DNA of 22,676 bases from a virus. The notes below the pieces were generated by a model, which worked only from the letters and a program-made list of their open reading frames with translations, made no database searches and had not been told where the DNA came from. The DNA is taken from positions 1 through 22,676 of IMG/VR virus record IMGVR_UViG_3300025652_000602; one strand, written 5' to 3'. Below, piece by piece: positions 225-22,108 of this stretch (positions are counted from its first letter, which is position 1; each line of letters starts with the position of its first letter). A program made the position numbers and the translations under genes.

Positions 225-381
225 CGATGAGGTCTGGTATGCGGTACATGAGGTCTACGAAGGCAATGGCTACACTGTAGAGCCTGTAAGGGTACAAGGT
301 CAGGACAAAGCTGACATCAAGTGGATGCTAGAGACTGTGCTAGAAGACATTGAGAAACATGGAGTGAAAGACTATGAGTAG
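184..381 (+). CDS. Small conserved-type phage protein of unknown function (65 aa)
   Basis: The 65-residue product starts MTWNYQLMKH and is acidic (several EDIEK/DEVW clusters). It has no cysteine pair, signal peptide or membrane segment. The start is well supported, because a strong AGGAGG Shine-Dalgarno sequence lies at 171-178, about 6-7 bases ahead of ATG 184. It begins inside the upstream alanine-rich frame and overlaps the pentapeptide gene downstream by 8 bases, so it sits in the same transcription unit. Short proteins starting MTWNYR/Q and containing a YAVHEVY-like stretch are, from memory, found in other phages, but I know of no function for them. Confidence 0.8.
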   Translation: MTWNYQLMKHTEPNDEVWYAVHEVYEGNGYTVEPVRVQGQDKADIKWMLETVLEDIEKHGVKDYE

Positions 382-796
382 TAATGATTACGACGAAGGA
401 TACCGTGCAGGTATGCAGAAGATGCGAGACCTAGCATATAACCGCATAGAAGAACTTAAAGTAATCTTAGACAACCACAAATTATGGCTTTCTGGCAAAG
501 AGGGTGGTGTTCGTGCCAATCTTAGTAATGCCGATCTTAGTAATGTCGATCTTAGTAATGCCTATCTTAAGTATGCCAATCTTGAGGGTGCCAATCTTAG
601 TTGTACCTATCTTATAGGTGTCAATCTTAGTGGTGCCTATCTTAAGGGTGCCAATATTAGTGGTGCCAATCTTTATAGTGCTAATCTTAGTGGTGCCAAT
701 CTTGAGGGTGCCAATCTTGAGGGTGCCAATCTTAAGGGTGCCAATATTAAGGGTGCCACTATGACAACAGGTTCTAAAGGAAAAGAAACAGAATGA
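374..796 (+). CDS. Pentapeptide-repeat protein (140 aa)
   Basis: After a 47-residue N-terminal region, predicted helical and charged (RDLAYNRIEELKVILDNHK), residues 48-127 are 16 consecutive five-residue units of the A(N/D)LSX type. Examples are ANLSN, ADLSN, ANLEG and ANIKG. A short polar tail follows. This is the pentapeptide-repeat fold, a right-handed quadrilateral beta helix. Members such as MfpA and Qnr mimic DNA and bind gyrase, but many have no known partner, so gyrase modulation here is only a possibility. Sixteen units give about four coils, which is shorter than Qnr (over 200 residues). No signal peptide is seen, so it should be cytoplasmic. The gene overlaps the previous one by 8 bases and shares ATGA with the next. 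Confidence 0.9.
   Translation: MSSNDYDEGYRAGMQKMRDLAYNRIEELKVILDNHKLWLSGKEGGVRANLSNADLSNVDLSNAYLKYANLEGANLSCTYLIGVNLSGAYLKGANISGANLYSANLSGANLEGANLEGANLKGANIKGATMTTGSKGKETE
515..754 (+). repeat. 15-base coding repeats of the pentapeptide tract
   Basis: Sixteen in-phase 15-base units of the general form GCCAATCTTAGTGGT encode pentapeptides 48-127 of the gene at 374-796. Units are 60-100% alike at the DNA level, and several near the 3' end differ at only one or two bases, which suggests recent unit duplication. The same periodicity keeps the opposite strand open, producing a spurious antisense frame. Confidence 0.85.
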
Positions 797-1000: not shown

Positions 1001-2593
1001 ATGAGCGACAACCCACACATTGCCTGTCCCTTCACTGACTGCGGTTCGTCGGACGCCTTCAATTGGAATGACGAGGGGTATGGGCACTGCCACTCTTGTG
1101 GCGGAAGCTATCCTAGCAAGGATATGGGCCCTACATTTGACTGGGCTAAAAAGGAATACCCATTGAAGACATTGATAAACCCAAAGTCAGCAGAGATTAC
1201 TGGCTTTACCTACAAGGGGATTCGTGGTCTCGATGAAGACGTTGCCAAGATGTATGGCATTCAGATTCAGATGTCTAACGGTGAACCTATCCGCTATGCC
1301 TACAAGTACCCACACACAGTCAAGTATCGTGACTACAACAACAAGTCTAACTCTTGGGTTAAAGATATCGGTGTTGGTATGAAGAGCTTCTTCGGACCCA
1401 ACTTCAACTCTGGATCTTCCAAGCGCCTATACATTACCGAGGGTGAGTTTGATGCAGCATCCCTCTTTCAAATCCTGGGTCAAACATTCCCAGTAGTCTC
1501 ACTACCTAGCGCATCTATTGGTGAGAAGTTCCTGAAGAACAATCACGAGTATCTCTCAAACTTTCAAGAGCTTGTGTATGCAGGTGAGCTTGATACAGCC
1601 GGTAGGGTAGCAGCTAACAAGCTGTACGAAGTCTTCCCAGAGAAGTTTTATTACGTACCTATGAATCTTCACAAAGACGCTAATGACTTTCTAACAAAGG
1701 GTGACAGCGAGACCCTAAAGTGGGCAGCCGTTAAGCCACAGAGATACTCACCAGAAAACTTTTTCTGCAGTGATGACGCAGTAGAGAACGCTATCACTAA
1801 GGAAAGTCCGTACGAGTATACACCCACAGGTCACGAGGAACTTGATAGCATGTGCCGTGGACTTGTGAAGGGTGGTATTACCTTTATCAAAGCGCCACGT
1901 GGTACAGGTAAGACAGAGATCATTCGATACTTTGAGACAGCCATGCTGCGAACAGAGACTTGCCGTGTAGCAATGCTTCACATGGAGGAGATGAAGTCCA
2001 CAACCTACAGGGCCATGGCTACATACCAGCTTGGTGTCAATGTACGTACAAAGGATGATGCAACTTGGAACGGTGTCTCAGAAGCGGATGTTATCAAGGC
2101 TGCTAAGGAAGCCACACAAGGTGAACGTACTATCATCTTCGAGATGATGGCACACGATGATCCTATGAAGCTCCTAGACTATGTGCGTCTTGCAGCCACT
2201 GTCTATGGTGCAGAGTATATCTTCATCGACCACGTTCAACGCCTTGCCTACCTTTCAGACGCTGGTGTAGATGGCGCAACATCAACGCTTACAACTCTTG
2301 GCTCTCGTATGGCTCAGCTGGCTAAGCAACTAAACATTGGTGTTATCTTCATCTCCCAAGTAAATGATGATGGTCGGACGAAGTATGCAGCCTCTCTTGA
2401 AGAAGAAGCTATTATCTGCATCAAGCTAGTGCGTGATGTAGAAAGTGAGGATCAGCTGCTGCGTAATACAACAGGTCTGTTTGTTGATAAGAACAGACCT
2501 TTCAGTAAGCTTGGTAAGGCTGGTGGTGTCTACTACGAACCAGAAACAACTCTCTTAGAAGAGACAGTTTGGCCAGAAGGACTTGCACCATGA
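1001..2593 (+). CDS. T7 gp4-like DNA primase-helicase
   Basis: This bifunctional enzyme primes lagging-strand synthesis and unwinds the fork. The 530-residue product has an N-terminal zinc-binding module with C9, C14, C30 and C33 (C-x4-C...C-x2-C). A TOPRIM primase domain follows, seen as YITEGEFDAAS near residue 145 with its later acidic motif GELDTAG near 195. The C-terminal RecA-like helicase has a Walker A motif at about 298-305 (APRGTGKT) and Walker B near 405-410 (YIFIDHVQRL). T7 gp4 is 566 residues, so this is full length. GAGG about nine bases upstream supports the ATG at 1001. The gene is followed after 43 bases by DNA polymerase, the usual partner, and expected to act with it and the SSB at 4576-5142. 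Confidence 0.96.
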   Translation: MSDNPHIACPFTDCGSSDAFNWNDEGYGHCHSCGGSYPSKDMGPTFDWAKKEYPLKTLINPKSAEITGFTYKGIRGLDEDVAKMYGIQIQMSNGEPIRYAYKYPHTVKYRDYNNKSNSWVKDIGVGMKSFFGPNFNSGSSKRLYITEGEFDAASLFQILGQTFPVVSLPSASIGEKFLKNNHEYLSNFQELVYAGELDTAGRVAANKLYEVFPEKFYYVPMNLHKDANDFLTKGDSETLKWAAVKPQRYSPENFFCSDDAVENAITKESPYEYTPTGHEELDSMCRGLVKGGITFIKAPRGTGKTEIIRYFETAMLRTETCRVAMLHMEEMKSTTYRAMATYQLGVNVRTKDDATWNGVSEADVIKAAKEATQGERTIIFEMMAHDDPMKLLDYVRLAATVYGAEYIFIDHVQRLAYLSDAGVDGATSTLTTLGSRMAQLAKQLNIGVIFISQVNDDGRTKYAASLEEEAIICIKLVRDVESEDQLLRNTTGLFVDKNRPFSKLGKAGGVYYEPETTLLEETVWPEGLAP

Positions 2594-2619
2594 GTTAGAT
2601 AGGTGGTACAATACACCAC
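2583..2619 (+). promoter_or_regulatory. Possible sigma70-type promoter ahead of DNA polymerase
   Basis: TTGCAC (2583-2588) and TACAAT (2607-2612) are separated by 18 bases, a fair match to a bacterial housekeeping promoter. The -10 box lies inside a short inverted repeat, GTGGT (2603-2607) and ACCAC (2615-2619), which could be an operator or a chance match. It overlaps the end of the primase-helicase gene and would supply an extra start for the polymerase gene. This is motif evidence only. Confidence 0.35.
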
Positions 2620-2636
2620 AACAAAAAGGAGATAGT

Positions 2637-4514
2637 ATGAAAGTATTTGATATCGAGTCTGATGGACTACTTGATACAATCACAAAGATACACTGCGTCT
2701 CTTACAGCTCTGATGGTAAAAACTTCCATACCATCTATGACTACGACCAAATGCGTAAGTTCTTCACCGAAGAAAAGATACTTATAGGACATAACATTGT
2801 GCGCTATGACAACAGGGCAATCCATAAGATCCTGGGTATCAAGGTCAAGTCAAAGGTCTATGACACTCTTGCTATGTCGTGGGTCTTTGAGCCAAACAGA
2901 TCACGCCATGGTCTGGAGTCATGGGGTGAGACCCTCGGGGTTAAGAAGCCAGAAATAGACAACTGGGAGAACCTTAGCCTAGAAGAGTATACACACCGCT
3001 GTGAGGAAGATGTTAAGATCAACTGGGGTGTTTGGCAAACCCTTATCCGCAAGGCAAAGCTTATCTATGACGACAAGACTGAACTAAATAGGTTCCTTCA
3101 GTACCTTACATTCAAGATGGAATCAGCTGCTAAAGCTGAGGATGCTGGATGGGAGGTTGACTTAGACCTTGTGAACAGGAGTATCGAGACACTGACACAA
3201 CAAAAACTGGAAAAGGTTGAAGAGTTAAAACAGTACATGCCAATGCACAAGAAGTTTACCGTTAAAAAGTTCCCAAAGAACCCATACAATAAAGATGGTA
3301 AACTCTCTGTTCATGGTCAGAAGTGGAAAGACCTGCTCAAGGCACACAGTTTACCTAGTAACTATCGTGGGGAGATCAAAGACTTAAAAGGTTTTGAACC
3401 AGCAAACCCTGGGTCATCTGATCAAGTTAAGAACTGGCTGTTTAGTCTTGGTTGGAACCCTTGCACCTTTGACTATAAGAACAATGAGGATGGGACAGAA
3501 CGTACAGTTCCACAAGTTAGAAAGGATGGAGAACTCACACCCTCAGTCAAGATCTTGATTGAGAAAAATCCTGGGGTAGCTACGCTTGACGGTCTTACAG
3601 TTCTTCAACACAGACTCTCAATCTTTACTGGCTTTAAGGAGTGTCAAGTTGATGGGCGTCTTCGTGCAGAGGTCGATGGTCTTACAAATACCTTACGCTT
3701 CAAGCACAAAAAACCACTGGTCAACTTGCCAGGTGTAGATAAACCTTGGGGCAAAGAGGTACGTGGAGCACTTACAGCACCTAATGGTTTCATTCTCTGT
3801 GGTGCAGACATGGTGTCTCTGGAGTCAACAACTAAGCGCCACTACCTGTATCCCTACGACCCCGACTACGTTGAAGAGATGTCAACTCCGGGCTTTGATG
3901 AGCACCTTGACCTTGCAGTTAAAGCTGGGTACCTGTCCCCTGAAGACTATCGGTTCTACACTACCTCAAATGAAGACACGGTAAATGACAAAGATCTTTA
4001 CTACAAGATCCACAAAGTACGTAAAAAGTTTAAGCCTGTGAACTACTCAGCTATCTATGGTGTAGGTGTTAAGAAGCTGCATAGGTCTACGGGTATTGCA
4101 ATGGGTGAAGCCGGTAATTTGCTGAAAGCATACTGGGATCGTAACTGGGGTATCAAGCAGTTTGGAGAAGACTCTTTTAAGACAGTCAAGATTGTTGGTG
4201 GCGAGATGTGGATTAAGAACCCTGTAAGTGGATTTTATCACTCTCTTCGTTATGAGAAAGATACCTTCTCAACAATCAATCAAAGCACTGGTGTATATTG
4301 TTTTGACAACTGGTTGGCAGCATACCTTATGGTTAGGCCAAACATTGTTGGACAATTTCACGACGAATCAATCAACTGTATCAAGGAGGGTGAAGAGGTT
4401 CAACATGAGGGCATCTTGAGGCAGGCTATCAAGAGGGTTAACGATAAGCTTAAACTAAACATTGATCTAGACATTGATGTAAAGTTTGGTTATCGCTACT
4501 CAGACATACATTAA
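2637..4514 (+). CDS. T7-like family A DNA polymerase with 3'-5' exonuclease
   Basis: This is the replicative polymerase, 625 residues from ATG 2637 (T7 gp5 has 704). The exonuclease domain opens with FDIESDG, giving D5 and E7 as in T7, and continues with IGHNIVRYDN and EEDVKIN for the second and third exonuclease motifs. Polymerase motif A carries D391 (GADMVSLES), motif B has R462, K466, Y470 and Y474 (RKKFKPVNYSAIYG), and motif C is H575-D576-E577. Position 470 corresponds to E. coli Pol I residue 762 and is tyrosine. I place the start at 2637 because AAAGGAG lies just upstream and the product then begins at the exonuclease motif. An in-frame ATG at 2583 would add 18 unconserved-looking residues and overlap the helicase gene. 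Confidence 0.96.
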   Translation: MKVFDIESDGLLDTITKIHCVSYSSDGKNFHTIYDYDQMRKFFTEEKILIGHNIVRYDNRAIHKILGIKVKSKVYDTLAMSWVFEPNRSRHGLESWGETLGVKKPEIDNWENLSLEEYTHRCEEDVKINWGVWQTLIRKAKLIYDDKTELNRFLQYLTFKMESAAKAEDAGWEVDLDLVNRSIETLTQQKLEKVEELKQYMPMHKKFTVKKFPKNPYNKDGKLSVHGQKWKDLLKAHSLPSNYRGEIKDLKGFEPANPGSSDQVKNWLFSLGWNPCTFDYKNNEDGTERTVPQVRKDGELTPSVKILIEKNPGVATLDGLTVLQHRLSIFTGFKECQVDGRLRAEVDGLTNTLRFKHKKPLVNLPGVDKPWGKEVRGALTAPNGFILCGADMVSLESTTKRHYLYPYDPDYVEEMSTPGFDEHLDLAVKAGYLSPEDYRFYTTSNEDTVNDKDLYYKIHKVRKKFKPVNYSAIYGVGVKKLHRSTGIAMGEAGNLLKAYWDRNWGIKQFGEDSFKTVKIVGGEMWIKNPVSGFYHSLRYEKDTFSTINQSTGVYCFDNWLAAYLMVRPNIVGQFHDESINCIKEGEEVQHEGILRQAIKRVNDKLKLNIDLDIDVKFGYRYSDIH

Positions 4515-4575: not shown

Positions 4576-5142
4576 ATGGCAAGTGATATCAAAAACACCT
4601 ACGTAGAACTCGAAGGCATCATTGAATGGGCCAAGCTCTTTGAGCATAATCGAGATCAAAAGGGTTATAATGATGCGTATGTAGATACAAATGGCCGAAC
4701 TACGGTGAACTTCATCCTTGATGCTGACAACATGGCTAAGCTTAACAAGAGTGGCTCACTTAAACGTGGTAAGCCAGATCCCAAAGGCCGTGGCACATCT
4801 GTAAAGTTTGACCGAAAGTGGGAAACAGGACGTGACTGGGACAGTGGTTCACCAGACATCTACCGAGCTGATGGTAACCCTTGGGATCCAGAGGTGGATG
4901 GTGAGATCGGTAACGATTCAATTGGGCGAATCATGCTCGTAATCACCTATTTCCCAACTGTTAAGACCTACTCTACCCGTATCGAGAAGGTTAAGATTCT
5001 CAGCCACGTACCTTACGATGGCCCAACAGACCCATTCAAGGTAGATGAGAGTGGTAAGGTGCCACAACAACAACAACAAACCTCAACACCTACCCCTGCC
5101 CCAGTTATGCAGGAAGAAATGAACGACGAAATCCCATTCTAA
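4576..5142 (+). CDS. T7 gp2.5-like single-stranded DNA-binding protein
   Basis: The protein coats single-stranded DNA and recruits polymerase and helicase. The product is 188 residues (T7 gp2.5 has 232). Its body is rich in basic and aromatic residues, as expected for an OB-fold protein (KFDRKWETGRDWDSGS, IMLVITYFPTVKTYSTRIEKVK). Residues 164-168 are a run of five Gln, followed by a Thr/Pro linker. The end is the acidic tail EEMNDEIPF with a terminal aromatic residue. That tail is the hallmark of gp2.5 proteins and mediates partner contacts. The gene follows the polymerase after a 61-base gap with a promoter-like sequence and precedes the exonuclease gene by nine bases. Identification rests on tail, size and position rather than on a unique motif. 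Confidence 0.85.
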   Translation: MASDIKNTYVELEGIIEWAKLFEHNRDQKGYNDAYVDTNGRTTVNFILDADNMAKLNKSGSLKRGKPDPKGRGTSVKFDRKWETGRDWDSGSPDIYRADGNPWDPEVDGEIGNDSIGRIMLVITYFPTVKTYSTRIEKVKILSHVPYDGPTDPFKVDESGKVPQQQQQTSTPTPAPVMQEEMNDEIPF

Positions 5143-5151
5143 GGAGCTATC

Positions 5152-6006
5152 ATGGCCAAGACTATCGACACACTCATTAATGACATGAACAACGTGATAC
5201 TTGGCCTTGGTGGTTGGGACAGTGCTATCACGGGGTATCTTGCTAAAAGCATCGCTGAAGTTGCAGAGAATCGCTTTTCAAAGCCGCAAGAACCCCGTGG
5301 TTACCTTAGCCTATCTGCCCTTGGGGACCCATGTGAGCGTAGTTTGTGGTATAAAGTAAACATGTCTGAGAAAGGGGAACCACTCTCACCAGAGACACTT
5401 GGAACATTCTTTTATGGAGACCTCCTAGAAGCCTTTATCATTGCTGTCGTTAAGGCATCTGGGCACAGTGTAGAGGGGGAACAGGACAGGTTAGATGTTC
5501 ATGGGGTTAAGGGTCACAGAGATGTCATCATTGATGGTATGACTGTTGACGTTAAGTCTGCATCCTCTTTTGGTTTTGAGAAGTTTGCAAAGGGTACCCT
5601 AAGGGAGAACGATCCTTTTGGTTATATTAGCCAGCTATCCTCTTATGTGTATGCAGGTAAAGATGATCCAAAGGTTACGGATAAAAAACGTGGAGCCTTC
5701 CTTGCAGTAAAGAAGGATCGCTTCAAGTTAGCTCTTGATATGTATGACTTCTCAGAAGAGCTTGATGGTAAAGAGCAAGAGATCGAACGAAAGAAATCTC
5801 TTGTAGCAGGTAACATCCCAGAAGAGAGACTGGCACCAGTTCCACAATCAAAGACAAGCCCAAACATGAAGCTTGATACAAAATGTGGATACTGTCAGTT
5901 TAGAAAAGTTTGTTGGCCTGATGTAAGAACCTTTATCTATTCCTCTGGACCATTGTTCCTAGTTGATGTTCAGAAAGAACCAAACGTACCGGAGTTAATC
6001 GAATGA
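5152..6006 (+). CDS. Cas4/RecB-like PD-(D/E)XK exonuclease with predicted Fe-S cluster
   Basis: The 284-residue protein has the RecB-family nuclease core: E93 in helix 1, GHRD (D124), TVDVKS (D133, K135) and Q161 in QLSSYVYA. It also carries the four-cysteine layout of Cas4 and AddB, with C61 (DPCERSLWY) far upstream of C245-x2-C248-x5-C254. These normally hold a 4Fe-4S cluster that staples the fold. It probably degrades or resects DNA during replication, recombination or host DNA breakdown, taking the place that gp6 holds in T7. GGAG six bases before ATG 5152 supports the start. The stop overlaps the next nuclease gene in ATGA, so the two are likely made together. Confidence 0.88.
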   Translation: MAKTIDTLINDMNNVILGLGGWDSAITGYLAKSIAEVAENRFSKPQEPRGYLSLSALGDPCERSLWYKVNMSEKGEPLSPETLGTFFYGDLLEAFIIAVVKASGHSVEGEQDRLDVHGVKGHRDVIIDGMTVDVKSASSFGFEKFAKGTLRENDPFGYISQLSSYVYAGKDDPKVTDKKRGAFLAVKKDRFKLALDMYDFSEELDGKEQEIERKKSLVAGNIPEERLAPVPQSKTSPNMKLDTKCGYCQFRKVCWPDVRTFIYSSGPLFLVDVQKEPNVPELIE

Positions 6007-6359
6007 GTAACGCTAGATCTGCAAAGCAAAAGGGTAGATTGGGGCAACAAGAGATCAGAGATATGTTCTATGAGATCTTCCCCCAACTAGAACAGGGGGA
6101 CATCAAGTCCGCAATTATGGGTGAGGGGGGTGCAGACATTCAACTTTCACCTGCAGCACATAAACTTATGCCAATCTCTGTAGAAGTTAAACGAAGAAAG
6201 TCTGGGATGAAAACTCAGTATGACTGGCTTAATCAAGCAAGGTCACACACCAATGATCCTCCAGTTGTTTTCTTTCGTGCAGATAGGTCAGATTGGGTTG
6301 TAGTAACACCTGTAGAACACTATCTAGAACTACTAAAGGTTTGGAAAAATGCTAACTAA
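6003..6359 (+). CDS. Hjc-like PD-(D/E)XK endonuclease, probable Holliday junction resolvase
   Basis: The 118-residue product has the compact nuclease pattern of archaeal Hjc and related phage resolvases. Following a basic N-terminus (SAKQKGRLGQQE), E17 lies in helix 1, D45 in EGGADIQ, E61 and K63 in VEVKRRK, and Q78 in LNQAR. Such enzymes cut branched DNA, and T7 uses a different protein (gp3 endonuclease I) for this job. The position directly after the exonuclease, with an ATGA overlap, supports a role in recombination and clearing branches before packaging. A VRR-NUC-type general endonuclease is an alternative. The C-terminus overlaps the next start by 11 bases. Confidence 0.8.
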   Translation: MSNARSAKQKGRLGQQEIRDMFYEIFPQLEQGDIKSAIMGEGGADIQLSPAAHKLMPISVEVKRRKSGMKTQYDWLNQARSHTNDPPVVFFRADRSDWVVVTPVEHYLELLKVWKNAN

Positions 6360-6651
6360 AATTCTCCAAATGTTTAAGCTTAGACCAAAGGAAGAGGAGT
6401 ACCCACTAAGTCAAAAGGTTTTAATTTGGGCAGTGCTAGATGGTCCAATATACGATGATGATCGTTGGGTACTGGTAGTTAAGGTTACAGCTAATGACGA
6501 CCTGGTTATTACCGAAATCTTTTTTGATAATGTAAGAGAGGCTCACAGATTTGCCTTACACATAAGAGAGAGGGATTCACCAATAGAGATGATTTTACCC
6601 TCAGATACCTTAATAGAAGAGAGTGACAGAATATGTCTAAAACAGCAGTAA
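6349..6651 (+). CDS. Protein of unknown function (100 aa)
   Basis: The product is 100 residues with a basic N-terminal stretch (LTKILQMFKLRPK) and then predicted beta strands (KVLIWAVLDG, WVLVVKVTAN, LVITEIFF). No catalytic motif, cysteine cluster or membrane helix is visible. The start at ATG 6349 overlaps the nuclease gene by 11 bases; ATG 6370 is an alternative that would trim seven residues. The 3' end overlaps the phosphoesterase gene by 19 bases. The context suggests a small accessory protein of the replication block, with unknown role. Confidence 0.7.
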   Translation: MLTKILQMFKLRPKEEEYPLSQKVLIWAVLDGPIYDDDRWVLVVKVTANDDLVITEIFFDNVREAHRFALHIRERDSPIEMILPSDTLIEESDRICLKQQ

Positions 6652-7406
6652 TTCTTACATGTGCTCACGCAGATCCAAGCGTTAGTAACGAACGTTTCAG
6701 TTGGCTTGGGGAGTACCTCTATGACCTAAAACCTGATTATGTCATTGACCTTGGTGACGGTGCTGATATGCGTTCCTTAAATACATACGACACAGCGTCC
6801 CCCAAAGCTATCATCTCACAGTCCTATGAGAAAGACATTGATACATATAATGATTCTCAAGAACGTATGCGCTGGAAGTTTAAACAGAATAAAAAGAAAC
6901 GACCATTCTGGATTGGCTTTGAGGGTAACCACGAGAACCGTATCAAAAAAGCTATCGCCAAGGACCCCAGGATTGAGGGTGAGCGTATCGGTGTATCCTT
7001 CAGTCACCTTCAAACATCACACTGGTTTGATGAGTACCACGAGTATAAAAACTCTGCACCTTCTATTGCTGACTATGATGGGGTTAGCTACGCCCACTAC
7101 TTTAGCTCTGGCAATTTTGGAACAGCTACCTCTGGTACACACCACGCCTATTCACTCCTTCAAAACAGAAATAACTCTAGTACCTGTGGACACTCTCACA
7201 AACGTAGTTTATACTTTAAGGATGGTGCACACCCATCAGGTATCATTGGCCTAGTAGCTGGTTGCTTTAAAGGCCATGAAGAAAGTTGGGCAGGGCAAGC
7301 AAACTATGATTGGTGGAAGGGGATTGTTGTGAAACGACAACTTGAAAACGGGATGTACGAACCAGAGTTTGTGTCCCTTACAACATTGGAGCGTATGTAT
7401 GGCTGA
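6633..7406 (+). CDS. Calcineurin-like metallophosphoesterase with altered first motif
   Basis: The 257-residue product shows the ordered motifs of the metallophosphoesterase fold: LGDGAD near residue 41 (GDxxD), GNHEN near 100, a histidine in YAHYF near 150, and GHSHK near 187. These hold a two-metal centre that hydrolyses phosphomonoesters or diesters. The first motif, normally D-x-H, is CAH in TCAHAD, so one metal ligand appears to be replaced by cysteine, or the adjacent aspartate substitutes. The substrate is unknown; phage relatives have been proposed to act on nucleotides or DNA ends. It overlaps the upstream gene by 19 bases and the downstream small gene by 8. Confidence 0.82.
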   Translation: MSKTAVILTCAHADPSVSNERFSWLGEYLYDLKPDYVIDLGDGADMRSLNTYDTASPKAIISQSYEKDIDTYNDSQERMRWKFKQNKKKRPFWIGFEGNHENRIKKAIAKDPRIEGERIGVSFSHLQTSHWFDEYHEYKNSAPSIADYDGVSYAHYFSSGNFGTATSGTHHAYSLLQNRNNSSTCGHSHKRSLYFKDGAHPSGIIGLVAGCFKGHEESWAGQANYDWWKGIVVKRQLENGMYEPEFVSLTTLERMYG

Positions 7407-7585: not shown

Positions 7586-7768
7586 ATGCCCCGCTTCTTA
7601 AAAGAGTACACAATAAATATGGTTATTCAAGTAGAACCTGATGCACCATTCCTTGAGCTTGAGAACAACGAAAATGTAGATGTCATCATGCAAATGATCA
7701 AAGATTCTATTTATGATCTTGATGATATGTCAGTAAAAGAAATCGAAGTAGAGTACACTGGAGAGTGA
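7586..7768 (+). CDS. Small acidic protein of unknown function (60 aa)
   Basis: The product is 60 residues, strongly acidic (EPDAPFLELENNENVD, DDMSVKEIEVEYTGE), and begins with a short basic/hydrophobic beta-like segment. The pattern of strand, helix, strand with a final EIEVEYTGE resembles small phage proteins of unknown role. A GAAGAGG sequence precedes ATG 7586 by about eight bases. The stop overlaps a GTG that could start the MazG-like gene. No domain can be named. Confidence 0.65.
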   Translation: MPRFLKEYTINMVIQVEPDAPFLELENNENVDVIMQMIKDSIYDLDDMSVKEIEVEYTGE

Positions 7769-7791
7769 CTCGAATAGTGGAGAAGATAAAT

Positions 7792-8235
7792 ATGTTCTAT
7801 ACAGATGAGACACGGCTTAAGGAGTTCATCAAAGCCTTCTCCGGATCACTTGACCCCCGCTTGTGGGCTAACCTTATCAAGGAGGAGTTCGAAGAGCTAA
7901 AGGCAGAAGAGCCCGGCACGGAGGAACACCTAAAAGAGTATGCTGATCTTATGTACGTCTATAGTGGACTTGAAGTAGTTACAAACCTCAACTTTAGAGA
8001 CCTTGTCCCAGAGAAGGAGATTAAAACCCTTGCTGTTATGTCCCGTGAGATTGAGGCATACATTGAAAACGCTTACTATAATCTCGAGACAGTTACCGAA
8101 GCTTTCAAAAGAGTTCACATCAGTAACATGAGTAAGTTGGGAGAAGATGGCAATCCAATCCTACGAGATGATGGAAAGGTTCTAAAAGGTCCAAACTATA
8201 AAACTCCAGACCTTAGCGACTTGGTGACATCATGA
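7792..8235 (+). CDS. MazG-like nucleotide pyrophosphohydrolase
   Basis: From ATG 7792 the product is 147 residues. It carries the EExxE...ExxD signature of the all-alpha NTP pyrophosphohydrolases, with EEFEE in an early helix and EYAD about 16 residues later. The C-terminal stretch (NMSKLGEDGNPILRDDGKV and GPNYKTPDLSDL) is characteristic of phage members. These enzymes hydrolyse nucleoside triphosphates to monophosphates and pyrophosphate; in phages they may trim noncanonical nucleotides or alter pools. The start is uncertain: GTG 7765, overlapping the previous stop, adds nine residues, but GGAG at 7779-7782 sits correctly before ATG 7792. It ends in an ATGA overlap with the DUF1127 gene, two genes before the reductase it functionally matches. 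Confidence 0.85.
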   Translation: MFYTDETRLKEFIKAFSGSLDPRLWANLIKEEFEELKAEEPGTEEHLKEYADLMYVYSGLEVVTNLNFRDLVPEKEIKTLAVMSREIEAYIENAYYNLETVTEAFKRVHISNMSKLGEDGNPILRDDGKVLKGPNYKTPDLSDLVTS

Positions 8236-8411
8236 AGTGGCTCTGGAGATTTACTAACTACCTGACAACACGTGCAGAACATCGACGTGTTATCAAGGAA
8301 CTTAATCGACTAACAGATGCAGAGTTGAAAGATATCGGGATTAACCGCTGTGATATTGATCGGCTGGTCTGGCTAGACGAAGATAAACAACAACGAGGTG
8401 CTAAACAATGA
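8232..8411 (+). CDS. DUF1127 (YjiS-like) small basic protein
   Basis: This 59-residue gene lies between the MazG-like and ribonucleotide reductase genes, with ATGA overlaps on both sides (8232-8235 and 8408-8411), so its translation is probably coupled to both. The product has an N-terminal segment of aromatic and basic residues, then the DUF1127 core: RRVIKELNRLTDAELKDIGI followed by NRCDIDRLVW. The invariant L-x-D-x-x-L-x-D-I-G-I-x-R-x-D-I pattern is clear. In Alphaproteobacteria such proteins are abundant and some have been linked to RNA binding and stress or phosphate responses. I infer a host-derived regulator that may adjust host RNA or metabolism. The mechanism in this phage is unknown. 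Confidence 0.88.
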   Translation: MKWLWRFTNYLTTRAEHRRVIKELNRLTDAELKDIGINRCDIDRLVWLDEDKQQRGAKQ

Positions 8412-10408
8412 ATAACTACCAAGAGTTCTCTACACGTGCCAATGTTGTTACACGGCGCACATACAACCGACCAAAGGAAGACGGTACCTTTGAGTCATGG
8501 ACAGAAACAGTAGATCGTGTAATTGATCACCAGAAGTGGCTTTGGGAACGTGCCAAGGGCAATACCCTAGACATGCTAGAGATTGTTGAGCTTGATAAAC
8601 TACGTACACTTATGATTGAACGTAAGGCCACAGTCTCAGGCCGTACCCTGTGGCTTGGTGGTACGAAGGTATCCAAGACACGAGAAGCCTCTCAGTTCAA
8701 CTGTTCCTTTGGTCGTATTGAGACTGTACACGATATCGTAGATGCTATGTGGTTGCTGTTGCAGGGCTGTGGTGTTGGCTTTGAACCTGTTGTTGGCACA
8801 CTCAATGGCTTTGCTAAGAAGGTTAAAGTACAAACTGTACGATCTAACAAAGCTCTTGGAGACCCAAAGGGTTGCCCTAACAATCAGTCATGGACATCTG
8901 TTGACGAAGACGGGAATAAGACATACCATCTCAAGATTGGCGACAGTGCAGAGGCATGGGCTAAGTCAGCGGGTAAGCTGTTTGCCATGAAGGATGCTGT
9001 AGACGTCTTGGTCTTGGACTTCTCTGAAGTGCGTGCAGCAGGTGAACGACTCAAGGGTTATGGCTGGATTAGCTCTGGCGACGAGACTGTATCATCTGCC
9101 TTTAATCGTATCTGTGACCTGATGAATGATCGTGCCGGTCAGTTGCTTACACGTATCGACATTCTTGATGTGCTTAACCACCTTGGTACTACACTGTCTT
9201 CTCGTCGTTCAGCTGAGATTGCTTTGATGCCAGTGTCTGACCCTGAAGTAGATAACTTTATCTCAGCTAAGAAAGACTTCTGGTTGCACGGTAATGAGCA
9301 CCGTCAACAGTCTAACAACTCCATCGTCTTCCACAAGAAGCCAACCAAGTGGGAGCTTAGCTACATCTTCGACAAGATGGTTGAGGCTGGTGGATCTGAG
9401 CCTGGGTTCATTAATGCTGAGTCAGCAAAGAAACGTGCTCCACACTTCAAGGGAGTTAACCCGTGTGCTGAAATCCTCTTGGGTAACAAGTCCTTTTGTA
9501 ACCTAGTCGAAGTTGACTGGGGTAAGTTCCTTACTGACTTCGGTGGACTACAAGAAGCTGTTGAGATCGTAGCTCGTGCTAACTACCGTCAGACATGTGT
9601 GAACCTAGACGATGGTGTGCTTCAACGTTCATGGCATGAGCTTAACGAGTTCCTCCGTCTCTGTGGTGTAGGTGCTACAGGTATCGTCAAGTTCTTGGAT
9701 CATCACCAAGGTGTAAGCAACATCGAAGCTATGCTACAGGCTCTCAGAGCTTCAGCTAAGAAGGGTGCTAACTCCATGGCTGATGCGCTTGGCTTACCAC
9801 GTGCTAAGCTGGTTACTACAGTCAAGCCTTCTGGTACCCTATCTAAGATCATGGATACTACTGAGGGTGTGCACAAGCCACTAGGTAAGTTTATCTTCAA
9901 CAACGTTACGTTCTCTAAGCATGACGAGATTATTCCAACTCTTGTAGAAGCTGGTTACAAAGTTATCGACAAGCCCTTCGAGCTAGATAGTGTGCTAGTT
10001 ACATTTCCGGTAGCATACGAAGATGTTAAGTTTGATATTGTAGATGGCAAGGAGGTTAACCTTGAGTCCGCTATCAGTCAGCTTGACCGTTACAAGTTGA
10101 TGATGGATCACTATGTAGATCACAACTGTTCTGTAACAATCAGTTATGATACCTCTGAGGTACCTTTTATCATTGACTGGATCTTGAATAACTGGGATAC
10201 TTACGTTGGGGTATCTTTCATCTACCGTAACGATCCAACAAAGACAGCAGAAGACTTGGGGTATGCCTACCTACCACAAGAGGTTGTATCTGAGGAGACT
10301 TACCGTGAATATGCCAGTACTTTGATGCCAGTAGACTTGACAAAACTTGCGTCTACAGACGATCTTTCTGACGAAGCTTGTGCCACAGGTGCTTGCCCCA
10401 TCCGTTAA
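8408..10408 (+). CDS. Class II (adenosylcobalamin-dependent) ribonucleotide reductase, monomeric
   Basis: This enzyme converts ribonucleoside triphosphates to deoxynucleotides for phage DNA synthesis. The 666-residue product resembles the Lactobacillus leichmannii enzyme (739 residues). C99 in FNCSF and C364 are the redox pair, C353 in NPCAEILL is the thiyl-radical cysteine with E355 beside it, and the 11-residue C353-C364 spacing equals that of C408-C419 in the reference enzyme. The C-terminus, CATGACPIR, supplies the C-x4-C shuttle (C658, C663). All key residues are present, so it looks active. It needs B12 from the host or environment. The gene starts in an ATGA overlap with DUF1127 and is followed after 56 bases by glutaredoxin, a plausible reductant. 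I see no cobalamin riboswitch. Confidence 0.95.
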   Translation: MNNYQEFSTRANVVTRRTYNRPKEDGTFESWTETVDRVIDHQKWLWERAKGNTLDMLEIVELDKLRTLMIERKATVSGRTLWLGGTKVSKTREASQFNCSFGRIETVHDIVDAMWLLLQGCGVGFEPVVGTLNGFAKKVKVQTVRSNKALGDPKGCPNNQSWTSVDEDGNKTYHLKIGDSAEAWAKSAGKLFAMKDAVDVLVLDFSEVRAAGERLKGYGWISSGDETVSSAFNRICDLMNDRAGQLLTRIDILDVLNHLGTTLSSRRSAEIALMPVSDPEVDNFISAKKDFWLHGNEHRQQSNNSIVFHKKPTKWELSYIFDKMVEAGGSEPGFINAESAKKRAPHFKGVNPCAEILLGNKSFCNLVEVDWGKFLTDFGGLQEAVEIVARANYRQTCVNLDDGVLQRSWHELNEFLRLCGVGATGIVKFLDHHQGVSNIEAMLQALRASAKKGANSMADALGLPRAKLVTTVKPSGTLSKIMDTTEGVHKPLGKFIFNNVTFSKHDEIIPTLVEAGYKVIDKPFELDSVLVTFPVAYEDVKFDIVDGKEVNLESAISQLDRYKLMMDHYVDHNCSVTISYDTSEVPFIIDWILNNWDTYVGVSFIYRNDPTKTAEDLGYAYLPQEVVSEETYREYASTLMPVDLTKLASTDDLSDEACATGACPIR

Positions 10409-10464: not shown

Positions 10465-10698
10465 GTGACGTTTATTATCATCACACAAGATAAGTGCTCA
10501 TATTGCGACAAGGCTAAACAGCTTATGGTAGATAATGGGGAATATTCAGTCTCTTATAACCTTCGGAGTTCTAAGTGGCTCAGTGATCTTCTTGGCAAAA
10601 CAGAGATAACAACTATACCACAGATTTGGGACTCAGAGGGTAAATATATTGGTGGCTACAACGAACTTTTAGAATACTTTACAGGGGTTAAAAAGTAA
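10465..10698 (+). CDS. Glutaredoxin
   Basis: The 77-residue product has the glutaredoxin/thioredoxin fold signature: a first strand (TFIIITQ), active-site C11-S-Y-C14, and a cis-proline segment (TTIPQIW) near residue 52, then GGYNELLEYF. It transfers electrons to disulfides and, placed directly after the ribonucleotide reductase, could re-reduce that enzyme. The start is GTG 10465, preceded by a purine-rich AAAGGGGG about seven bases upstream. The stop overlaps the phoH start in TAATG. Length is normal for small phage glutaredoxins. Confidence 0.92.
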   Translation: MTFIIITQDKCSYCDKAKQLMVDNGEYSVSYNLRSSKWLSDLLGKTEITTIPQIWDSEGKYIGGYNELLEYFTGVKK

Positions 10699-18067: not shown

Positions 18068-21000
18068 TTAATCCCATAGATCTAAAAGTTGATCTGCAGC
18101 CCATAGAGCCACCTTTGTCTTTCCAGAATCCTCAGCTGCCTTCAGCTGTGCATTCGAAACACTCAAGTCCATCTCACCTAACAACAGGTTTACGTTTCTA
18201 TCCGATTGATTTTCAGAAGCAGAGAATGCAAAAGCCATAATATCTCTTTCACGTTGCCACAAGTCATCAAGAGCTTTTGCGGTCATAGCATTAGCTGTAG
18301 CTGCAGTCTCTCGGTTAGCTGCGTTCTGAGCTTCTGTATCAGTAAGTGAGATTGTTTGACGCCACTTAGCATTAGCCTGAGAGATAATAAGTGCATTGGA
18401 TGAGTTAAACTGATCTCTCGCAGATTCAAGTTGTGTGTTGAACCTTGCGTTTGCATTCTCCTCACCTGCGTTAGCCTGAGCAATAGCGTTTGACTGATCA
18501 GCATTAAAACGTGAGATGTTTGCAGAAAGATCTTCAAAGAACTGATTTACTTGGTTCTCACTTGCGGCATTGAATTGTTCTGAAGCATTCTCAGCTGCTT
18601 GGTCAGACAACATAGAGTTGATGATAGACTGACTTGCAAAGAGGGCTGTCTGTTGCTCATTATCAAGGTTTGACAAGTCCATTTGAAGTAGGCTCTGAGC
18701 ATTCTGAACTTGTGACTGCTGACGGTTGTTTAGGTTTGTCATGTCCAACTGTGACATCGCAGCTGCATCAGCAAGCAATTTAGCAGAGCTAGAGTTAAGG
18801 TTTGCTAGGTCTACTGACTGTGCAATCTTAGAGTTCTCAATTGCTCTTTGCTGGTCTGCAGTAAAGTTAAGGTTTGCAACCTCACCAATACGTGATGCGT
18901 TGAGTGTACCAGTTTGCTGTGCATTTGTCAACTCTTGACCACGCATAGCAGCTTCAATCTGTGAGTTAGCTAAAGCAGTCTGTTGACGGTTTGACAGGTT
19001 TGCCATGTCAACAGTGACCTTATTGGACATGTTAAACAACAGTGTCTGCTGTTCGTTATTCAGCTCAATCCCACGTTCCTGAACAGCATTGGCAACATTG
19101 AAGATTGCAGTTTGCTGTTGGTTATCAAGAACTTTACCCTCCATTGTTGTTCTTGCAACAAAGTCTTGTACAAAAGCTTGTTGCTTGTTGTTAAGGTTAA
19201 TATTGTTTACTTCTGCAAATCTCTCGGAGTTCACAATGGCAACTTGCTGTTCATTACTAAGAACTTGACCCTGTAGAGATGCACGAAGCTGAGCATTAGC
19301 AAGAGATGTTTGTTGCCGATTGCTTGTGTTAGTCATATCCATTTGGAAGTTTTGAGTAGTCTTCAGAACAGTTGCTTGTTGTTCATTTGTCAAATTAATA
19401 TCTTGAACTTCAGCAACACGAGAAACATTATAAAGCTCTGATTGCTGCTTGTTGGAGAGAACTTGTCCCTCCATAGTCGCACGAATGTTTGCGTCTTGAA
19501 TAAATGCCTGCTGCCTACTTGTAAGATTAAGGTTATTTGACTCAGCATAACGTGCTGCATTTAATACGGCAGTCTGTTGGTCATTATCCAAAACTTTACC
19601 TTGTAGTGCCGCACGAAGCTGAGCATTAGCAAGAGATGTCTGACTCTCTGTAGATAGATTAGCTAAATCAACTTGTAGACCCTGAGCACTTTTCTGCAAA
19701 AGTACCTGCTGCTCATTACTCAAGTTTACATCGTTTACTGTTGCAATTCGAGAGGCATTAAAGAGTGCAGTTTGCTGAGAGATATCAAGAACTTTACCCT
19801 CCATTGCGGCACGGGCGGACGCATCTTGCAAGAAGGCTTGTTGTTTAGCGTTGGCTGTAAACTCTGCACTTTGGAACGCCTGAGTAGACTCAAGCATCGC
19901 CATCTGCTGATCGTTAGTCAGTTCTTGACCACGAAGAGATGCCTGTACTTGTAAGTTAGCCAAAGCTGTTTGCTGAGTTGAGTCTAGGTTAGCCAAGTCA
20001 ACTTGAAGGTTTTGAGCACTTCTTGTGAGCAGGGACTGTTGGTCATTATTTAGGTTGATGTTGTTTATCTCTGCATAACGAGAGGCATTAGCAAGAGATG
20101 TCTGAGTGTAGATATCAAGAACTTTTCCCTGCAACGAAGCTTTAATCTGTGCGTTTGCAATAACAGCTGCCTGGTTGTTAGAGAGGTTTTGAGATTGTAG
20201 TGAAAAGGCATTTGCACTGTTTTGCAAGGAGCTTTGCTGCAAGTTATTAAGGTTTGTCAGATCAAAGTTTTGTTGTGCTGCAGCATTAGAAATTGCTACC
20301 TGCTGACGGTTACTAAGGTTAGTGAGTTCCATCTGCATAAACATTTGTGCATCAGCCTGTGCGATAGGCATAGCAGCCTCCATAGAGGCCTGTACGATAG
20401 CAGCTCCAGCCATAGAGGACGTACCTAGCCCACGTGCAGCCATAGCAGCGTTAGCGGCTCTCATAGCTCCTGCAGCCCATGCTGGTGTGCCGTTATTGAA
20501 CTGTTCCATCAGTGTAGACATTTGACCTGCAATAGTGGCAGATGCAGGTACACCGCCCTGCTCAGCAATAGCCAGTGATGCTTGAGAGAGGGTCCCAGTT
20601 ACAGCTTGAGATACAGCTGCAGAATCAAGGGCAGCCATAGTTGCTGCAGTTGCCTCAATAGCTTCAGCTACCTTGACAATGTTTTTAGCCTCAACCAGTT
20701 CCTCTGCCCCAACGGTACCTCTAACAGACTCTACAGTGCTCTGAAAGGAAGACTGCGCAGCTTCTGTAGTTGGAAACTCCCCAGCCTTTGCAGCGTTTTG
20801 AACTACGGTTTCATTCAGTATTGCAGACTCAGTTGGAGGAAGGTTGTAAGCTGTTTGAGCATCAATAATCTCACCAGACCCAACCTGACCCTTAGCTGAG
20901 GTCAAGTTTTCAGAATACTCAGTTTGAGCCAGTACAGCCTGCTCAGCTTCAAGACCAAGACCCTTAGTCTCTACAAGCTCATCAGCGGAAACACCAGACT

Positions 21001-22108
21001 GAGCAATTTGAGTTGTAATTCTATCGTACTTAGTTTGAGCTTTAGCAAGCTGATCAGCTGAAATCTTACCTTCTGCAAACTCAGATTTAGCATCGTAAAG
21101 TGATTGCTCTGCAAAAGCTTGTTCAGCTACAAGGTCACGACCAGCTACACCTGCAAGTTCTTCATCCGTAACAGCTCCTTGAGCGGCTTCGAGTTTACCG
21201 AGGGCGTATTCAGTTTGTGCATCTGCCTCTGGTGTTGCAGATGCAAACTTAGCAGCGATAACATTAGCAGGTTGACCAGTAATTTGAGCAACAGCTTTTG
21301 GTAGGGAGAGACCTTGGTTAACGAGTGTAGCAGCTTTAGCAAGTTGATCTGGTGTAACTTTAAGATCACCAGTATCCAGTACTTTTCTAATCTCTTTAAT
21401 TTGTGGTGCAGTGAGACCAAGCTGTGCAAGCTCTTTTGTATTCATGGTCTGAGGAGTAACTAGCTGAGAGACTTCACCAGTAGCTGCTTTAGTGCCCTCT
21501 GCAACATCAGTAACACCTTCAGTTGCTTTTGCTGCATCATAGGTAGCAGCAGTCATAGCCTCTGGAACCTCTGCAGTAGCTACAGTATCAACTGTGGATG
21601 TATCAGCAGCCCTTACCTCATCAACCTTACCGGTAGCAGCGCCAATAAGTTCCTCTGGGGTAGCAGCACCAACCTTAGTGACTGTGGACTCTTCAACCAT
21701 TGCGGTTGGGTCTTTAAAGATCTGCCCTACAGTTTCTCCACCTGTTGGTATATTTTCAATACCAAATTGTGTCTGAGCAACGTTTAAATTAGACTCAGCT
21801 TTTTGATAAGCTTTCTGTGCATTTGTAAGTGCAGTCTGAGCGGCAGCATCATTTGGCCTAGCTTCTGCAATACGAGCAGCATCTGCCATAGCTTTAGTAG
21901 CAGATGAAAACGCATCCTTAGATGGCTGAAGTAGAACACCACCATCAGCCATACCGGTTTTAGTTTCAGCAGCACGAGAGAACTTACCCATTTTGGCAGC
22001 AGCCCCTGGGTTAGAAGCAATAAAAGCTTCCATCATCTTTGGGTCAGCTGGGCCTTCATAGCCCATCTTTGAAAGAAGGGAGTGTTGTTGTGTAGGGGTA
22101 AAATTCAT
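18068..22108 (-). CDS. Giant repeat virion protein (1346 aa) with 22-residue tandem repeats
   Basis: The product is 1346 residues. Residues 1-60 (MNFTPTQQHSLLSKMGYEGP) are followed by an Ala/Glu/Thr-rich helical region to about 590, where EEL...LVAEQA-type segments recur loosely. Residues 598-1169 are 26 tandem 22-residue units of the type LSNRQQTALANAQLRASLQG, with Leu at position 1, QQ at 5-6 and Asn at 11 and often 22. The same 22/11 spacing continues to about 1257 with QFN/RFN at the Asn positions. The end (residues about 1258-1346) is a Trp-containing tail. Hendecad repeats suggest a very long helical rod or bundle. I recall similar C-terminal sequences in large structural proteins of marine phages. 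A virion role, possibly in the ejection apparatus or tail, is inferred from the adjacent transglycosylase gene. Confidence 0.78.
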   Translation of the reverse strand: MNFTPTQQHSLLSKMGYEGPADPKMMEAFIASNPGAAAKMGKFSRAAETKTGMADGGVLLQPSKDAFSSATKAMADAARIAEARPNDAAAQTALTNAQKAYQKAESNLNVAQTQFGIENIPTGGETVGQIFKDPTAMVEESTVTKVGAATPEELIGAATGKVDEVRAADTSTVDTVATAEVPEAMTAATYDAAKATEGVTDVAEGTKAATGEVSQLVTPQTMNTKELAQLGLTAPQIKEIRKVLDTGDLKVTPDQLAKAATLVNQGLSLPKAVAQITGQPANVIAAKFASATPEADAQTEYALGKLEAAQGAVTDEELAGVAGRDLVAEQAFAEQSLYDAKSEFAEGKISADQLAKAQTKYDRITTQIAQSGVSADELVETKGLGLEAEQAVLAQTEYSENLTSAKGQVGSGEIIDAQTAYNLPPTESAILNETVVQNAAKAGEFPTTEAAQSSFQSTVESVRGTVGAEELVEAKNIVKVAEAIEATAATMAALDSAAVSQAVTGTLSQASLAIAEQGGVPASATIAGQMSTLMEQFNNGTPAWAAGAMRAANAAMAARGLGTSSMAGAAIVQASMEAAMPIAQADAQMFMQMELTNLSNRQQVAISNAAAQQNFDLTNLNNLQQSSLQNSANAFSLQSQNLSNNQAAVIANAQIKASLQGKVLDIYTQTSLANASRYAEINNINLNNDQQSLLTRSAQNLQVDLANLDSTQQTALANLQVQASLRGQELTNDQQMAMLESTQAFQSAEFTANAKQQAFLQDASARAAMEGKVLDISQQTALFNASRIATVNDVNLSNEQQVLLQKSAQGLQVDLANLSTESQTSLANAQLRAALQGKVLDNDQQTAVLNAARYAESNNLNLTSRQQAFIQDANIRATMEGQVLSNKQQSELYNVSRVAEVQDINLTNEQQATVLKTTQNFQMDMTNTSNRQQTSLANAQLRASLQGQVLSNEQQVAIVNSERFAEVNNINLNNKQQAFVQDFVARTTMEGKVLDNQQQTAIFNVANAVQERGIELNNEQQTLLFNMSNKVTVDMANLSNRQQTALANSQIEAAMRGQELTNAQQTGTLNASRIGEVANLNFTADQQRAIENSKIAQSVDLANLNSSSAKLLADAAAMSQLDMTNLNNRQQSQVQNAQSLLQMDLSNLDNEQQTALFASQSIINSMLSDQAAENASEQFNAASENQVNQFFEDLSANISRFNADQSNAIAQANAGEENANARFNTQLESARDQFNSSNALIISQANAKWRQTISLTDTEAQNAANRETAATANAMTAKALDDLWQRERDIMAFAFSASENQSDRNVNLLLGEMDLSVSNAQLKAAEDSGKTKVALWAADQLLDLWD
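18602..20317 (-). repeat. 26 tandem 66-base (22-codon) units
   Basis: Residues 598-1169 of the giant protein divide without any insertion or deletion into 26 units of 22 residues, 1716 bases in total. Consensus features are L1, N3, Q5, Q6, A/L at 8-9 and N11, then a second 11-residue half ending in (N/Q)GKV, VDLAN or EVNNIN. Perfect length conservation despite sequence drift indicates a structural constraint on the period. A weaker continuation to residue 1257 reaches base 18338. Confidence 0.9.
18866..20185 (-). repeat. Four 330-base super-repeats (5 units each)
   Basis: Units 3-22 alternate in a fixed order of five types, so the second-order repeat is 110 residues or 330 bases, present four times. 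Type endings are LQGKV/MEGKV, SRxAExNxIN, LQVDLAN/QMDMTN, ASLQGQV/AALQGKV and AExNNxN. At the DNA level the 29 bases 19281-19309 recur exactly at 19611-19639, 330 bases apart, and a block at 19123-19146 matches 19783-19806 at 660. This shows growth by duplication of five-unit blocks. Confidence 0.88.

Follow-up and report, generated by a model that had tools for sequence, protein, structure and literature searches.

A Cas4-like exonuclease gene overlapping an Hjc-like nuclease gene: a candidate DNA end-processing and branch-removal unit with exchangeable parts in marine T7-like phages

The gene pair and its replication neighborhood

The window, by which we mean the whole viral stretch of 22,676 nucleotides that was analyzed, carries two predicted nuclease genes whose open reading frames share the letters ATGA at positions 6003-6006 (Table 1). 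This overlap between a Cas4-like gene and the gene for a 118-residue nuclease is found as reported in a preliminary description of the same DNA. The pair lies in a plus-strand block that reaches up to ~12.3 kb, with a minus-strand block beyond, and the list of open reading frames shows that many genes of the plus-strand block abut or overlap. The order within this block is primase-helicase, family A polymerase, SSB-like protein, Cas4-like protein, Hjc-like protein, an unknown protein of 100 aa and metallophosphoesterase, followed by MazG-like, ribonucleotide reductase, thioredoxin-like and PhoH-like genes. Matches of the window genes to Pfam and PHROGs bear out the T7-like replication neighborhood that had been proposed. 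The gene directly preceding the pair probably encodes a single-strand DNA-binding protein, to judge from its position and the C-terminal tail of its product, which matches no PHROG at E ≤ 1.

Table 1. Features of the window discussed in the text
Feature	Position	Strand	Remarks
Pentapeptide-repeat-like protein, ANL-type repeats, function unknown	374-796		phrog_7713, E 4.2e-29
DNA primase-helicase (T7 gp4-like)	1001-2593	+	phrog_239, E 1.1e-76; DnaB_C, E 1.5e-13
Family A DNA polymerase	2583-4514	+	phrog_17, E 7.5e-94; DNA_pol_A, E 5.6e-13
Probable single-strand DNA-binding protein	4576-5142	+	acidic C-terminal tail NDEIPF; position between polymerase and exonuclease
Cas4-like PD-(D/E)XK exonuclease (slot 1)	5152-6006	+	ATG start, 284 aa; phrog_1990, E 2.1e-34
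C61 codon, putative N-terminal cluster ligand (canonical Cas4 position)	5332-5334	+	Cys in 108/250
R226 codon	5827-5829	+	Cys in 136/250; Cys in SIO1-/HMO-2011-type relatives without C61
C245-x2-C248-x5-C254 codons, putative C-terminal cluster ligands	5884-5913	+	249/250
Hjc-like PD-(D/E)XK nuclease (slot 2)	6003-6359	+	ATG start, 118 aa; phrog_244, E 1.2e-16
Metallophosphoesterase	6633-7406	+	
MazG-like protein	7765-8235	+	
Ribonucleotide reductase	8408-10408	+	
Thioredoxin-like protein	10465-10698	+	
1346-aa protein	18068-22108	-	many imperfect N-L-x-N-x-Q-Q-type repeats (by eye, translation)

Among named phages, the nearest relatives of the Cas4-like protein come from Roseobacter phages CRP-4, CRP-9 and CRP-13 (61%, 59% and 57% identity, respectively). 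CRP-4 is filed under Zobellviridae, Cobavirinae, and CRP-9 and CRP-13 are described as having a Cobavirus-type replication module (PMC8528129). We consider the window to contain a marine T7-like (Zobellviridae/Cobavirinae-like) replication module. At the DNA level, positions 8321-10408, the ribonucleotide reductase region, are 81.3% identical to Celeribacter phage P12053L, and megablast aligns ten phage records with the window, every one of them at these positions only. It is possible that the ribonucleotide reductase gene was exchanged recently.

A Cas4-like nuclease in the first slot

The product of the upstream gene (slot 1) matches the PHROGs family annotated as ‘Cas4-domain exonuclease’ far beyond chance. 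Its match to Pfam family PF12705 lies close to the threshold (E 8.6e-5, 23 bits, with a cut-off of 22), and the same family is below the cut-off or missing in five relatives of the protein among those scanned. A structural model built from a 50-row alignment has a mean pLDDT of 95.0 and a pTM of 0.89. Foldseek returned SSO0001 Cas4 (4ic1) as the best match to this model (E 9.4e-6), followed by lambda exonuclease and its relatives. With VIA-align, LHK-exo 3sz4 (Z 12.4, rmsd 3.9, 162 residues aligned), Cas4 8d3l_J (Z 11.8, rmsd 6.6, 182 aligned) and 4ic1_G (Z 11.6, rmsd 3.7, 181 aligned) obtain scores that are tied. Sequence searches of solved structures with both proteins of the pair and their alignments gave nothing meaningful.

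Eight residues (G89, E93, G121, D124, D133, K135, Q161 and Y165) are invariant across 250 distinct near-full-length Cas4-like proteins, that of the window included, and the RecB-type PD-(D/E)XK active site formed by E93, D124, D133, K135, Q161 and Y165 is complete in every one of them. Profile match, model and invariant residues agree on the Cas4-like fold and RecB nuclease motifs that had been assigned from the sequence. The preliminary description had called for a profile search and a structure prediction, both of which return Cas4-type nucleases. It had also named loss of the nuclease residues in close homologues as speaking against its reading, and the active-site residues of the slot-1 protein are kept in 250 of 250 proteins.

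No cas1 or cas2 gene was detected among the window proteins scanned with Pfam (8), PHROGs (8, then 10) and PADLOC (10), which agrees with the earlier remark that this 22.7-kb fragment holds no CRISPR genes near the pair; location with cas1/cas2, the mark of a CRISPR-associated Cas4, was not observed for the scanned proteins. A phage protein of this type might nevertheless manipulate the CRISPR adaptation of its host, for which Campylobacter phages provide a precedent (PMC4283603; PMC5704561), and weak PADLOC matches to Cas4 were recorded (1.1e-4 and 1.9e-3). We consider such a role highly improbable for the window protein, given that the other nine window proteins scanned yield no PADLOC match at E ≤ 0.01 and that the RecE-like and FEN exonucleases found in the same slot in relatives (see below) point to replication.

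An Hjc-like nuclease in the second slot

The product of the downstream gene (slot 2) matches, again far beyond chance, a PHROGs family labelled ‘RusA-like Holliday junction resolvase’. Its model (44-row alignment, mean pLDDT 87.4, pTM 0.80) has a PD-(D/E)XK-like secondary structure, with a helix at residues 3-25, strands at 34-36, 46-48 and 59-65, a second helix at 73-80 and a final strand at 87-93. Archaeal Holliday junction resolvases fill the top eleven Foldseek rows, at E values of 0.034 or weaker and none below 0.001. The first VIA-align match is Hjc 1gef_E (Z 8.7, rmsd 2.6, 90 aligned), a score barely above the Z of 7 to 8 that is typical when a model has no clear match; 1ob8_B (Z 7.6, rmsd 3.9, 100 aligned) and SSO0001 (Z 7.2, rmsd 3.9, 95 aligned) were also retrieved. 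Among the matches listed for the model, no entry is named T7 endonuclease I, RusA or Hjc_15-6, which carries no weight as evidence.

Profile comparisons are less favorable to a relationship with Hjc. The Pfam Hjc family (PF01870) gives no match in the window at E ≤ 0.01, the same model matching 5 of 14 controls, and profile-profile alignment (hhalign) of the Hjc-like family with Hjc reaches a non-significant probability of 3-9%. Two further comparisons are likewise non-significant, Hjc-like against Cas4-like family at 0.6% and endonuclease I against Hjc at 8.8%. The Hjc-like nuclease of the preliminary description has some backing from the predicted fold, which scores best against Hjc 1gef by a narrow margin, and fails with regard to membership of Pfam Hjc; its proposed likeness to Hjc rests on fold and motif. 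Two other identities were tried and rejected. T7 endonuclease I (PF05367) does not match the product at E ≤ 1 and reaches 1.2% with hhalign, and RusA, the identity given in the PHROG label, is not among the 14 Pfam families that 44 members match at E ≤ 1.

The residues singled out earlier (E17, D45, E61, K63 and Q78) are all present at the positions claimed, and four of them are conserved among slot-2 relatives: D45 in 69 of 70, E61 and K63 in all 70, and Q78 in 69. Across the wider set of 70, residue 17 is Glu in no more than 28 proteins and Trp in 24, while Glu occurs there in 38 of the 42 distinct slot-2 proteins that adjoin Cas4-like genes. Residue 15, in turn, is Gln in 68 of 70 proteins and Glu in two, which belong to the Geobacillus-type phages D6E and NIIg3.2. 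Because E17 is unconserved outside near relatives and Q15 is conserved, a catalytic function of E17 seems unlikely. Furthermore, the invariant archaeal Glu of KGxxxE falls on Gln15 in a non-significant profile alignment, so E17 would not be equivalent to the motif-I Glu of Hjc. On this same alignment, the window protein has D45, E61 and K63 of the E-xD-ExK set of Hjc, with Gln15 at the position of the motif-I Glu.

Members of phrog_244 also occur in other surroundings. In two T4-like cyanophages of the Kyanoviridae (L590 and L591), the gene follows nrdA/nrdB and the displayed stretch contains no annotated exonuclease; phrog_244 genes thus need not be part of such a pair. In Myoviridae sp. isolate ct2os315 from Manatee Spring (L592), an exodeoxyribonuclease gene overlaps a phrog_244 relative downstream of an annotated DNA polymerase.

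Each slot is filled by alternative families

Loci for comparison came from IMG/VR scans with the Cas4-like protein and other queries, with at most 80 loci kept per scan, and from 20 stretches around Cas4-like relatives in named phages. The pair frequencies given below are biased, because the same families served as queries for retrieving the loci and some loci come from a single contig. Within the next 1.5 kb after the Cas4-like gene, endonuclease I is present in 182 of 253 loci (window included) and an Hjc-like gene in 62; both are present in none, neither resolvase in 3, and 6 loci are too short.

Alternative occupants were identified on representatives by Pfam and PHROGs (DUF3799/exonuclease VIII, 5_3_exonuc/phrog_107 and Phage_endo_I). 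Preceding an Hjc-like gene, slot 1 can hold RecE-like proteins (DUF3799 at 2.2e-21 and 3.3e-20; exonuclease VIII, phrog_412) or FEN-type 5'-3' exonucleases (phrog_107 at 1.5e-58 and 1.5e-61). The slots were counted in 533 fetched loci using stop-to-stop frames and five profiles. Such frames make visible the Cas4-like reading frames of L402, L403 and L413, which are masked by a start codon assigned too early, and they reveal a Cas4-like gene in 39 of the loci obtained with the CRP-212 query. One exonuclease and one resolvase are present in 491 of the 533 loci, an exonuclease only in 38 and a resolvase only in 4; some of the 38 are cut short, and 8 are named phages. Among the 533 loci, none combines exonucleases from two of these three families, and none combines the two kinds of resolvase.

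Among 424 distinct DNA pairs, Cas4-like proteins are combined with endonuclease I in 164 and with Hjc-like proteins in 139. RecE-like proteins are combined with Hjc-like proteins in 65 and with endonuclease I in 7, and FEN-type exonucleases with Hjc-like proteins in 49. Five of the six possible combinations are therefore represented, and the sixth, a FEN-type exonuclease with endonuclease I, was not found in the 533 fetched loci. The exonuclease gene is upstream and on the same strand in all 424 pairs. The median gap between profile edges is -7 to +3 bases (+74 for the FEN type), and it is smaller than 200 bases in 405 of the 424; larger distances of 376 and 390 bases separate the two genes in L002 and L004. 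Exclusivity of the slots applies to the families scanned and, beyond the fetched flanks, covers 15 whole records (14 named phages and one contig). In these, phrog_244 is present in 4, endonuclease I in 9 and both in none; 2 records contain neither, and a FEN-type exonuclease was found in none of the 15.

Relatives thus refill each position with another exonuclease or another resolvase, from which a paired exonuclease-resolvase logic follows. At the level of sequence, this same-position exchange of each gene supports the suggestion made earlier that the two form a paired resection and branch-cutting unit. The genes might also be neighbors merely through functional packing of early phage genes, with separate substrates and no coupling. 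This explanation draws on the many overlapping or abutting genes of the plus-strand block, on the two Kyanoviridae stretches in which phrog_244 has no annotated exonuclease beside it, and on the wide spacing in L002 and L004. Slots that are refilled by the same predicted job, with order and close spacing kept, speak against mere packing, and we judge it quite unlikely.

Further nuclease genes accompany some of these pairs and argue against strict exclusivity. Besides endonuclease I, P12053L has an annotated endonuclease VII gene 5 kb downstream (L083, 11365-11724), and phiM6 has an endonuclease 7 superfamily gene upstream (L088, 733-1167); nucleases that coexist with the slot pair may be able to cut branched DNA. 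In CRP-9, an HNH endonuclease gene (L085, 6845-7309; PF01844 at 1.2e-5), perhaps a homing insertion, stands between the Cas4-like gene and endonuclease I. By eye, 19 of the 22 FEN loci without either resolvase (in L459-L532) have the same HNH-type reading frame of ~121 aa directly after the exonuclease. PF01844 was confirmed in the two that were tested, and this gene is a possible third filling of slot 2 and may represent a third resolvase family.

Slot 2 has changed repeatedly

T7 itself has exonuclease and resolvase genes of the FEN-type and endonuclease I families, which are not side by side. According to the preliminary description, the window pair replaced this T7 set. Replacement in one step does not agree with our data, since endonuclease I is the partner in 164 of the 303 distinct pairs with a Cas4-like protein, and since the occupant of slot 2 has changed repeatedly. 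No other pair is as frequent in our biased sample as that of a Cas4-like protein with T7-type endonuclease I (PF05367), which accounts for 164 of 424. We mapped the occupants of slot 2 on a tree of 96 Cas4-like rows, built by a quick method with SH-aLRT support only, in which slot 2 is known for 88 rows (52 Hjc-like and 36 endonuclease I). Parsimony gives 6 changes, at least 3 of which are forced by starred branches, and shuffled slot-2 labels give 28.3 changes on average on the same tree. All 12 rows of the window's own clade (support 99) have an Hjc-like protein in slot 2, and CRP-4- and L019-type relatives, in the group neighboring this clade, have endonuclease I.

Cysteines of the metal site

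The only cysteines of the slot-1 protein are C61 and those of the motif C245-x2-C248-x5-C254, exactly as had been claimed. All members of the Cas4 family have been described as containing a module with four conserved cysteines (PMC5704561), and the arrangement of one N-terminal and three C-terminal cysteines has been described as a staple (PMC3466216). C245, C248 and C254 are conserved in 249 of the 250 distinct relatives. C61 is present in only 108 and missing in 142, and thus one cysteine of the set varies within this family.

A cysteine at position 226, which is 19 residues before the CxxC motif in the numbering of the window protein, never occurs together with C61 (0/250). We denote by C63' a cysteine at aligned position 63, as in the PNCQLW sequence of HMO-2011. 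The 250 proteins comprise 108 with C61 and without C226, 61 with C226 alone, 75 with C63' and C226, and 4 with C63' alone; the remainder are that of L421, which has none in the scored stretches and a cysteine just beyond, and that of cyanophage PP. Counted over the 253 loci, the corresponding figures are 86 for C61 without C226, 81 for C226 without C61 or C63', and 82 for C63' with C226, in addition to 3 truncated genes and 1 gene, from cyanophage PP, with none of these cysteines. In five distant phage relatives taken as an outgroup (Thermus phiYS40 and phiFa, Vibrio 13VT501A, Rhizobium RHph_X2_26 and Manatee Spring ct76p945), the aligned stretches have a cysteine at the N-terminal site in every case and none at 226, and C61 is thus probably the ancestral state.

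The mutual exclusion of C61 and Cys226 suggests that the fourth cluster ligand was relocated. Our proposal, for which we would put the odds a little short of even, is that this ligand moved from the C61 staple to Cys226 in the SIO1- and HMO-2011-type phages while the gene stayed in an exchanging exonuclease-resolvase pair. All four ligands would then lie in the C-terminal segment, and a C226-type cluster would dispense with the Cas4/AddB staple that joins both ends of the nuclease domain. On a 65-row tree the cysteine state changes once (C61-type versus the rest). The quick 96-row tree, which has SH-aLRT support only and flagged long branches, gives 3 changes per site and 5 for three states, and places the C226-type proteins of phiM6 (L088) and L422 near C61-type rows. 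The cysteine switch is not strong as a set of independent events, and because the trees show so few of these, the case for a relocated ligand rests on long conservation and not on repeated change. In the model, short strands are found at residues 230-231 and 239-240; if they pair as a hairpin, which we advance as a weak argument, position 226 would come to lie opposite 244.

The metal bound at the four-cysteine site may be an Fe-S cluster or zinc. The preliminary description named an Fe-S cluster, a statement that goes too far as written: zinc is admissible as well, as it has been reported at the same four-Cys site in 3L0A (PMC3466216), a structure that is itself among the structural matches listed for the Cas4-like model.

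A proposed function for the pair

We favor the view that the two genes work as a single unit within a marine T7-like replication module, processing DNA ends and removing branches, and assign this view a probability of roughly 0.6. The slot-1 protein would act as a metal-dependent PD-(D/E)XK exonuclease closed by the four-cysteine metal site, resecting the duplex ends of phage DNA and probably also of host DNA. Its polarity is most likely 5' to 3' by analogy with SSO0001, a four-Cys Cas4 described as a 5'-3' exonuclease on ssDNA (PMC3466216). Resection of this kind would leave 3' single strands, which the SSB-like product of the preceding gene might coat for annealing. The slot-2 protein, a small Hjc-like nuclease that is probably a dimer, would cut the four-way and branched DNA generated by replication and annealing, and the DNA would thereby become packageable. 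A Thermus phage encodes an archaeal-type enzyme that has been shown to cleave junctions (PMC8805305). Families, motifs, predicted folds, the gene overlap, the conserved order and the slot exchange are results of the computation, and from these we infer the activities, the polarity, the kind of metal, dimerization and a coupling of the two proteins, either physical or through their substrates. Nucleotide salvage by the pair is conceivable as well.

Salvage could even be the main purpose. The pair might serve chiefly to break down host DNA, with the junction or branch nuclease making nicks and the exonuclease degrading the DNA to nucleotides as a supply for the ribonucleotide reductase encoded downstream, and recombination would then be secondary. 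T7 gp3 and gp6 have roles in host-DNA breakdown and so provide a precedent, and MazG-like, ribonucleotide reductase and thioredoxin-like genes lie downstream in the window. On the other hand, Hjc-type enzymes are junction nucleases, blunt-ended lambda/HindIII fragments were left uncut by Hjc_15-6 (PMC8805305), and the pair directly follows an SSB-like gene. We regard host-DNA breakdown as the main function as unlikely, although it deserves to be kept in mind.

Both protein families of the proposed end-processing and branch-removal unit are already catalogued (phrog_1990 and phrog_244), and pairs of a Cas4-like protein with endonuclease I are already in public records for SIO1 (SIO1p18-p19) and HMO-2011 (gp14-gp15). 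Neither the slot exchange nor the moved cysteine turned up in the literature searched, which consisted mostly of papers open without subscription; the Cobavirus paper (PMC6775973) does not use the words endonuclease, exonuclease, Cas4 or RecB in its main text. With five of six pairs realized from three exonuclease and two resolvase families, these phages represent a natural combinatorial experiment, and their groups, HMO-2011-type and Cobavirus, have been reported to dominate in the ocean (PMC8528129). It can be tested whether end resection and branch cutting must match or are independent services. The pair also offers a functional approach to phrog_244, a family that carries the label RusA-like in PHROGs, and a way to ask whether Cas4-type nucleases need the cysteine staple in its canonical form, making it a good system for studying how phages process replicating DNA.

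Relation to known systems

The phrog_1990 members of Roseobacter phage SIO1 (SIO1p18), Celeribacter phage P12053L and HMO-2011 (gp14) belong to the same family as the window protein, and their genes likewise follow the polymerase gene, with one or two small genes in between. They differ from the window in lacking C61, in having Cys226 and in being partnered with T7-type endonuclease I. The Cas4-like proteins of Roseobacter phages CRP-4 (pair gp18-gp19) and CRP-9 share C61 with the window protein, but their partner is endonuclease I, and CRP-9 also has its HNH gene in between. Roseobacter phages CRP-212 and CRP-3 and phage T5S1-k141_653015 combine a Cas4-like protein with phrog_244, as does the window. 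However, these pairs are less closely related, a small gene separates the two in T5S1, and the Cas4-like proteins of CRP-212 and CRP-3 are of the C63' plus C226 type.

Outside these phages, SSO0001 Cas4 (4ic1) resembles the slot-1 protein as a four-Cys RecB-type nuclease and as its best Foldseek match, but SSO0001 is archaeal and many members of the phage family use another cysteine set. Archaeal Hjc (1gef) and Hjc_15-6 of a Thermus phage (PMC8805305) share the D-ExK motif with the slot-2 protein and may resemble it in predicted fold, whereas archaeal Hjc has no significant sequence match to it and Gln15 replaces the motif-I Glu. The gp6 exonuclease and gp3 endonuclease I of T7 have the same jobs that we infer for the window pair; they are of different families, yet FEN-type exonuclease and endonuclease I are among the alternatives found in the slots. 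A similar pairing in a distant phage is seen in Thermus phage phiFa (L258), where a RecB-family exonuclease gene is followed, one gene later, by an annotated archaeal-type Holliday junction resolvase.
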